Below are positions 29,239 to 31,235 of a stretch of DNA of 39,455 nucleotides, piece after piece. The notes below the pieces were generated by a model, which was not told the origin of the DNA, made no database searches, and saw nothing but the letters and a program-made list of their open reading frames with translations. The stretch is from Candidatus Altimarinota bacterium (GTDB taxonomy: Bacteria > Patescibacteriota > Gracilibacteria > JAHISY01). A program made the translations under genes and the position numbers. How positions within the stretch are numbered: the first letter of the stretch is position 1; each line of letters opens with the position of its first letter. The DNA lies in contig JAQVAZ010000007.1 of the NCBI GenBank assembly GCA_028690585.1, forward strand, positions 1 to 39,455. Reading direction: 5' to 3'.

Positions 29239-29739
29239 CTACACCTCCCTCTTCACCCACTTGAGATACAAGCTGGTTAAAGCTTCCTTCGTAGCGCTGA
29301 TGAGTGAAGCTAATACATCCTTGAGATTGCGAATCCGCGCAACCAATTCAGCAAGCTTGTGTGGCGGCATTTTCTTCACACCCACATAAGCCAGTAAAAC
29401 TTTTCTCTCATCTTTGCGAATCTCTTTGCGAATCTCCTCTGCGATTTCTTTACGCATCACTACAGTCTCTGGCAGTGGCTGAAACTGAGGGATAGAAGCA
29501 GCAACAGAATCATCTTGTTTTTTACCACCACTGCTTTGTTTGCCTTTGGTTTGGCTTTCATCCTCACCGAAAGATTCTCCATCTTCGATTCCGAGATCCG
29601 CAATCTCTCCAGAGATTTCTGCCTGAGTTACCATAAACTCAGTAGCCGCAGAGACATCTGTTTCTTTAGCCTGAGAATCACTTTTGGCTTCTTGGGATTC
29701 TGGTTTTTCGAGATGAGAATCGTTTTTCGTATCAGACAT
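29239..29739 (-). CDS. Protein of unknown function with disordered N-terminus
   Basis: A 166-residue protein. Residues 1-95 are low complexity (Ser, Glu, Asp, Lys, Gln), with no signal peptide. Residues 96-166 look folded and helical: VMRKEIAEEIRKEIRKDERK, then VGVKKMPPHKLAELVARIRNL and an amphipathic end LTSLYLKWVKREV. I recognise no domain. A TAAAAT box lies 8 bases upstream of the ATG. It is divergent from rplA and separated from the cassette promoter by AATTCTT-type heptamers. Confidence 0.65.
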   Translation of the reverse strand: MSDTKNDSHLEKPESQEAKSDSQAKETDVSAATEFMVTQAEISGEIADLGIEDGESFGEDESQTKGKQSSGGKKQDDSVAASIPQFQPLPETVVMRKEIAEEIRKEIRKDERKVLLAYVGVKKMPPHKLAELVARIRNLKDVLASLISATKEALTSLYLKWVKREV

Positions 29740-29793: not shown

Positions 29794-29822
29794 TTGCAAA
29801 GAAACTGATGTTTCCGTAGAAT
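29794..29822 (+). promoter_or_regulatory. Predicted promoter of rplA-dut
   Basis: TTGCAA (29794-29799) and TAGAAT (29817-29822) with a 17-base spacer. Transcription would start near 29829, leaving about 57 bases that contain the hairpin at 29835-29872. Confidence 0.6.
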
Positions 29823-29834
29823 CTCCGCACTTTT

Positions 29835-29872
29835 GAGGGAGTCTGCCGAAAGCCGGTAGACGCTAATACCTC
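29835..29872 (+). promoter_or_regulatory. Probable ribosomal protein L1 autoregulatory leader
   Basis: Outer stem GAGG/CCTC (29835-29838 with 29869-29872). An asymmetric internal loop, GA against GCTAATA, follows. The inner stem GTCTGCCG/CGGTAGAC (29841-29848 with 29854-29861) has one G-U pair and the loop AAAGC. The 5' side GGGAG and 3' side AATACC resemble, from memory, the GGGAG and AAATACC sides of the L1 site in 23S rRNA helices 76-77. Its place directly before rplA fits feedback control by L1. Confidence 0.6.
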
Positions 29873-29886
29873 TAACCCTACTCATT

Positions 29887-30792
29887 ATGAATCCTAAGAA
29901 AACCCCAGCCACTGAGGCTGAAGCAACTCCTACTGTCGATGATAAGGAGCTTCTTAAGCAGAAAAAAGAAGAAGCGAAACAACGCAAAGAAGCAGAGAAA
30001 GAAGAGAAGAAAGTTGAAAAACAATCCAAGAAGAAAGGCGCTGGCGCAGCCAAAGGTAAGAAAGAGAAGAAAGAGCAACGCCGCAATCCTCTCAAAATGC
30101 ATGGTAAGAAATACCGCGCAGTAGCGGCGAAGATTGATAAAGAAAAAACTTACTCTCTCACTGAAGCGGTGAAACTCGTGAAAGAAACTTCTGTAACGAA
30201 ATTCGATGGTAGTGTAGAGATTCACACTCGCCTCGGAATCAATACCAAAAAATCTGACCAAGTGATTCGCTCCACTGTGGCATTACCTCACGGCACTGGC
30301 AAGAAACTTCGCGTGATTGCTTTCGTAGGTGAAGATAAAGCAGCTGAGGCGAAGAAACTCGGCGCTATCGAAGCTGGTGAAAACAGTTTGATTGAGAAGA
30401 TTGCCAAAGGTTGGCTGGATTTCGATGTTGCGATTGCGACACCAGAGATGATGAAAGGCTTGGGTAAGATTGCGAAAACTCTCGGTCAAAAAGGTTTGAT
30501 GCCAAATCCAAAGGCTGGCACTGTCACTCCAGATATCGGCAACGCGATTGCTGAAATCCAAAAAGGTAAAGTGGAATTCCGCAACGATTCTTTTGGAATC
30601 CTCCACAACCTCGTTGGCAAAGTTTCTTTCGATGATGCGAAGTTGATTGAGAATATCAAAACTTATCTCAAAGCGGTGAATGAATCCAAACCAAAAGCAG
30701 TGAAAGGCGCTTTCATCCAAAGCATCAGCCTCGCTTCTTCTATGGGACCTGGTATCCGTATCGATGCTGCTGGCGTAATCCGCGAGCTGTAA
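29887..30792 (+). CDS. rplA: 50S ribosomal protein L1 with long charged N-terminal extension
   Basis: Residues about 75-301 match L1: [37 protein letters not shown], the signature [18 protein letters not shown], and the C-terminal [15 protein letters not shown]. The first 70 or so residues are an extra Lys/Glu-rich segment with Lys-Lys-Lys-Gly-Ala type repeats. Bacterial L1 is usually near 230 residues; this one has 301. L1 forms the mobile stalk at the ribosomal E site. The rplK gene that usually precedes rplA is absent. The stop overlaps the dut ATG (TAATG). The leader resembles the L1 rRNA target. Confidence 0.96.
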
Positions 30793-31235
30793 TGCAAGTA
30801 AAAATCTTTCGCCTCGATAAATCCCTACCGCTACCAACTTATGAAACAGCTGGGGCGGTAGGTTTCGATTTACTGGCACGAGAAGAAGTAATGATTGAGC
30901 CAGGCGAGATTAAACTCATTCCTGCAAATGTAATTGTAGAAACTCCCGTGGGTTATGCTTTACTGATTGCAAGCAGAAGTTCTACTCCGAAGAAGAAAGG
31001 TTTAACTCCTCCGCATGGCCTCGGAATTATCGACCAAGATTATTGTGGCGCGGAAGATGAATTGAAGATTCAAGTGCAAAACTCCACTACTACTCCAGTT
31101 ACAGTTTCGCGTGGAGAAAAAATCGCGCAAGCGCTTTTCGTGCCAATCGCCAAAGCAGAATTTATCGAAATTGATAAAGTCGAGAATCAAACGCGTGGCG
31201 GCTTCGGCAGCACCGATGCAATTAAAAATAGTTAG
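30792..31235 (+). CDS. dut: dUTP diphosphatase
   Basis: A 147-residue trimeric-type dUTPase with the five motifs in order: AGAVGFDLLA (1), SRSSTPKKKG (2), GLGIIDQDYCG (3, catalytic Asp), GEKIAQALFVP (4) and TRGGFGST (5). It hydrolyses dUTP to dUMP, keeping uracil out of DNA and providing the thymidylate precursor. It overlaps rplA by one base in TAATG, so it is probably translated by reinitiation. The linkage with a ribosomal protein gene is unusual. A long inverted repeat follows 30 bases after the stop. Confidence 0.95.
   Translation: MQVKIFRLDKSLPLPTYETAGAVGFDLLAREEVMIEPGEIKLIPANVIVETPVGYALLIASRSSTPKKKGLTPPHGLGIIDQDYCGAEDELKIQVQNSTTTPVTVSRGEKIAQALFVPIAKAEFIEIDKVENQTRGGFGSTDAIKNS

Follow-up and report, generated by a model that had tools for sequence, protein, structure and literature searches.

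A probable autogenous L1 operator in the rplA leader of a Gracilibacteria genome and its relatives

Introduction

Does the short leader that precedes rplA in Candidatus Altimarinota bacterium carry a binding site for the very protein that this gene encodes? The question arises from the window, that is, the whole 39,455-nt stretch of DNA analysed here (contig JAQVAZ010000007.1 of assembly GCA_028690585.1), in which a small hairpin stands immediately before rplA. Ribosomal protein uL1 represses its own synthesis at the level of translation, and the mRNA sites that it recognizes resemble its site on 23S rRNA (PMC10931766). Such sites are found before rplK in Proteobacteria, before rplA in Actinobacteria and Cyanobacteria, and before both rplK and rplA in Firmicutes and some thermophiles (PMC10931766). 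Since the complex of uL1 with rRNA is more stable than its complex with mRNA, newly made rRNA lifts the repression (PMC10931766).

The genome comprises 1.05 Mb in 48 contigs, and its nearest named relatives are assemblies labelled 'Candidatus Gracilibacteria' and 'Candidatus Peribacteraceae'. In part of the class, TGA is read inside rplA. Such reading of TGA is known from Gracilibacteria and Absconditabacteria.

Results and Discussion

The rplA leader folds into a hairpin with an asymmetric internal loop

The rplA leader has the sequence CUUUUGAGGGAGUCUGCCGAAAGCCGGUAGACGCUAAUACCUCUAACCCUACUCAUU-AUG. Its segment 29835-29872 forms a hairpin with an outer stem of 4 bp and an inner stem of 8 bp, separated by an internal loop in which GA faces GCUAAUA; the hairpin ends 14 nt 5' of the ATG of the uL1 gene (Table 1). 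The minimum-energy fold of 29829-29886 is exactly this hairpin (-17.3 kcal/mol), with pair probabilities of 0.92-0.94 in the outer stem. The two stems around an asymmetric loop that the initial annotation had proposed are thereby recovered at exact coordinates, and the GGGAG and AATACC strands to which it drew attention are present in the sequence as described. The promoter that it called good was found as well, albeit as a moderate match to the consensus, and a similar TTTG...TANAAT arrangement was seen in several relatives of the family.

When the folded range is 29810-29900, promoter DNA included, the outer stem is hidden and the energy is ordinary for the composition (z -0.42). That fold is misleading because the range begins before the probable start of the transcript, yet its z score means that folding energy, taken alone, is weak evidence. 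The GAGGGAG sequence was considered as a Shine-Dalgarno sequence and rejected, since it forms part of the stem and the AUG follows about 46 nt later. A scan of the whole window with Rfam 15 at the gathering threshold returned two tRNAs and no other match, and at E<=10 only chance-level Rfam 15 matches fell in the leader. On the minus strand, positions 29239-29739 encode a divergent 166-aa protein devoid of Pfam match, which shares its intergenic region with rplA.

Table 1. Coordinates of the features of the rplA-dut locus in the window
Feature	Position	Strand	Basis and remarks
Sigma-70-like promoter, TTGCAA-17-TAGAAT	29794..29822	+	Consensus scan, 9/12 matches, moderate
5' leader predicted for the rplA-dut transcript	29829..29886	+	Start inferred from promoter; fold
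Outer stem, 5' strand, GAGG	29835..29838	+	Covariation
Internal-loop GA of the asymmetric loop; A invariant in the 17-leader alignment A1	29839..29840	+	
Inner stem, 5' strand, GUCUGCCG; its first G does not vary in A1	29841..29848	+	Alignment, covariation
Apical loop AAAGC, varies among relatives	29849..29853	+	Alignment
Inner stem, 3' strand, CGGUAGAC	29854..29861	+	Alignment, covariation
7-nt loop strand GCUAAUA, consensus GYUNNNA	29862..29868	+	Alignment, E. coli comparison
Outer stem, 3' strand, CCUC	29869..29872	+	Covariation
14-nt spacer to start codon, without Shine-Dalgarno sequence	29873..29886	+	
rplA, uL1	29887..30792	+	Pfam PF00687, residues 98-288, E 8.6e-56
dut, dUTPase	30792..31235	+	Pfam PF00692, E 5.5e-23; ATG overlaps rplA stop (TAATG)

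Both helices covary in relatives of the class

For comparison, rplA regions were taken from 55 other genomes of the window's class. In most of the 55, a descriptor scan detected this hairpin directly 5' of rplA, and the commonest gap between the end of the outer stem and the AUG is 14 nt, as in the window. Seventeen rplA leaders of the class were then aligned by sequence, without structural information, to give alignment A1. Pairing is observed in 97.7% of its cells versus 70.4% in shuffles, a value that is partly built in because the descriptor by which the A1 leaders were picked demanded pairing, a bias of which matches outside the training set are free. Two-sided changes amount to 50 versus 14.6 in shuffles, both helices covarying strongly, while slid registers pair at 41-56%, none coming near the true register. 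An 86-sequence alignment, fitted to the structure, again displays far more two-sided changes than expected (204 versus 49.5). Around the internal loop of A1, GG, A, G, C and ACC are invariant, or nearly so at some positions.

A hairpin arisen by chance would agree with the ordinary folding energy obtained when upstream DNA is included. This explanation is already contradicted by the comparative data, namely covariation and position in relatives, and a relaxed form of the motif appeared in only 3 of 20,000 versions of the leader shuffled by dinucleotides; we regard it as vanishingly improbable.

Covariance models find the site before rplA and hardly elsewhere

A first covariance model, R1, was trained solely on 17 rplA leaders of the window's class. 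Run on both strands of 253 kb of loci, it detected 45 sites at E<=5, all 45 immediately 5' of rplA and on the rplA strand, 28 of them outside the training set. In the whole 1.05-Mb genome, the leader is its sole significant match (E 6.5e-8), the next one having an E value of 3.78.

Of the 287 Patescibacteria genomes drawn, 60 were matched by R1. The 53 matches read in 50 Patescibacteria loci are overwhelmingly located before rplA (44), with 2 before rplK and 7 in other positions. Two of these seven are near rplA, from which a larger gap (L101) or a small ORF (L103) separates them; the other five are chance matches. Matches in L098, L112, L116 and L117, together with a second one in L101, were considered as pointing to other regulated genes and rejected, as they correspond to tRNA-Leu, coding sequence or a GC hairpin and have low scores. 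In L103, the L1-type site (1041-1083) lies 5' of the small ORF that precedes rplA, so that the operator may control this leader gene along with rplA.

A second and broader model, R2, was used with strict filters in the scan of the 287 genomes, of which it matched 78. Wherever an rplA position was listed, the R2 site was upstream of rplA and on its strand (68 of 68). All 78 matched genomes encode uL1, while 41 of the 287 have no uL1 match (hypergeometric 7e-7). With these strict filters, R2 sites occur in about a third of the uL1-bearing Patescibacteria genomes (78 versus 246); consequently, either some of these genomes lack the site or the model is drawn too narrowly.

The leader resembles the E. 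coli L1 operator and, less closely, the 23S rRNA site

In the secE-nusG-rplK-rplA region of E. coli K-12 (3.5 kb), the best match of R1 is GGGAGCCUCUCAGAGGCGUUAUUACC (18.8 bits, E 0.0004), found at 1404-1429 of locus L090 and ending 18 nt 5' of rplK. We take this sequence to be the classical E. coli L1 target; Thomas and Nomura (1987) reportedly defined the L1 target in the E. coli rplK leader by mutations. The operator of the E. coli L11 operon and the hairpin of the window have in common GG-GA-G, the inner stem, a 7-nt loop strand (GUUAUUA in E. coli, GCUAAUA in the window), CC and proximity to a start codon. They diverge in their setting: in E. coli the operator precedes rplK, governs both rplK and rplA, and is separated from the start codon by a stretch with an SD-like GAGG, whereas the site of the window stands before rplA alone in a leader without Shine-Dalgarno sequence.

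In helices 76-77, the organism's own 23S rRNA (AGGUGGGAGACUUUG...GUGGAGUCAACCUUGAAAUACCACCC, from position 3703 of L001) has GGUGGGAG and AAAUACCACC as contact strands, arranged about the same internal loop and in the order seen in the leader. The GUGG/CCAC outer stem usual in the leader family is identical to that of this 23S rRNA, and the window bears the compensatory GAGG/CCUC. However, the loop strand of the own 23S rRNA has 12 nt versus 7 in the leader, and its inner helix leads to H77-H78. Because of this 12-nt strand and of helices 77-78, R1 gives the own 23S L1 site no significant score (5.1 bits, E 5.9), although contact strands and order match. Based on the difference in loop length and on this low score, the leader would be a simplified mimic; it is much nearer to other mRNA operators than to the rRNA.

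By description, the rplA-proximal sites of Actinobacteria and Cyanobacteria and the second site of Firmicutes and thermophiles share the placement and the irregular stem-loop with internal bulge (PMC10931766). The window differs from those rplA-proximal sites in that it comes from another phylum and in that its rplA stands apart from rplK and has dut behind it. A site before rplA was also seen in four Synergistaceae loci (L121, L123, L134 and L162). The hairpin of the window fits the rplA-proximal type of L1 operator, a kind of control that is already known.

A hairpin that provides 5' stability or a standby structure without binding uL1, its likeness to L1 sites being coincidental, would suit the short leader, the strong inner stem and a start near the predicted 5' end. 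We nonetheless find it highly improbable: unpaired positions are conserved too (GG-A-G ... C-(7)-ACC), as they are in the E. coli target and in the own 23S rRNA, and the sites are found at rplA, hardly elsewhere, and only in genomes encoding uL1.

The site precedes rplA even where rplK is a neighbour

The initial annotation described rplA as solitary, which is right locally, and rplK as missing, which is not: rplK is located on another contig (G000:C27), behind secE-nusG and followed by a convergent gene. No site was found before this rplK in a model search with filters off. Among 56 class members, about 30 have rplK at most 200 nt upstream of rplA, with the site still located between both genes, and no R1 match precedes rplK in any of the 56. 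Because the site persists between adjacent rplK and rplA, the proposed control restricted to rplA is a feature of the class and not the outcome of an operon split, contrary to the earlier suggestion that it would act on rplA-dut alone since rplK is missing.

Three class members (L003, L024 and L057) have no recognisable L1 site at rplK or rplA. Their rplA begins 13 nt after rplK or overlaps the rplK reading frame, and it may depend on coupling to rplK. Two other loci, L076 (genome G272) and L093 (genome G105), contain two L1-type sites each, before rplK and before rplA, and account for the two rplK matches mentioned above; in L076, both hairpins share GGGAGCUUAAUUUGUCUAUUAAGC, as if copied. 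As for the protein itself, the uL1 of the window (29887-30160) has about 70 extra N-terminal residues rich in Lys and Glu, an extension common to the family relatives L028, L032, L035 and L044 and absent in most class members examined.

A dUTPase gene recurs downstream of rplA

In 16 class members, dut is found 3' of rplA on the same strand, at a distance of at most 120 nt in 12 of them and with an overlap or a gap below 10 nt in six. This pairing, always on the same strand, is known from at least four families of the class. The two genes are neighbours in the window and in L005, L018, L021, L023, L026, L029, L030 and L032-L035, and the rplA stop overlaps the dut start in the window and in L035. 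Since the dut start overlaps the rplA stop, and relatives likewise have dut after rplA, co-regulation of the dUTPase with rplA by the operator is plausible from the gene arrangement. It is a more tentative idea, and one we rather doubt, that in this lineage uL1 sets the dUTPase level, the operator on the rplA-dut mRNA tying dUTPase output to the balance between free uL1 and new rRNA.

A model of autogenous control

We consider it very likely that the leader segment 29835-29872 is an autogenous translational operator to which uL1 binds. The proposal of the initial annotation, an rplA leader that mimics the L1 site and mediates autogenous control, is strongly backed by covariation, by position upstream of rplA in the class and across Patescibacteria, by the uniqueness of the match in the genome and by the recovery of the E. 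coli target. We predict that uL1 in excess over new 23S rRNA would bind the internal-loop hairpin, an imitation of the contact region of 23S H76-77. Bound 15-52 nt upstream of the AUG, uL1 would keep the 30S subunit off a leader that lacks a Shine-Dalgarno sequence; given the 14-nt spacer without such a sequence, the hairpin and its bound uL1 would sit on the stretch of mRNA that the 30S subunit needs. Repression would act on rplA and probably, by way of the overlapping stop and start (TAATG), on dut as well, until new 23S rRNA takes uL1 away and lifts it.

No clear Shine-Dalgarno sequence was found in the few window genes checked. The 3' end of the 16S rRNA (L198) reads GGATCATCTCCTTTCTAGG, with UCUCC rather than CCUCC as anti-Shine-Dalgarno core.

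An L1 operator could also act by transcription attenuation or mRNA decay instead of blocking initiation, and other ribosomal protein leaders do use attenuation (e.g., rplJL of B. subtilis). For the present leader we deem this unlikely, as no terminator-like structure is found downstream on the plus strand, no U run follows the hairpin, and the gap to the AUG is nearly fixed at 14 nt in many relatives.

Biological significance

We found no earlier report of an L1 operator in Patescibacteria in the open-licence literature. The covariance models obtained here describe an element that has no Rfam 15 match in this leader. Placement before rplA throughout the class, with rplK adjacent or not, points to an operator tied to rplA itself rather than to an rplK-rplA operon. 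Genomes with tightly coupled rplK-rplA and no site, along with the two genomes with double sites, offer a way to test how the operator was gained and lost. With this finding, an RNA-based feedback loop that is among the oldest known would extend to Patescibacteria, where gene regulation has hardly been studied by experiment.
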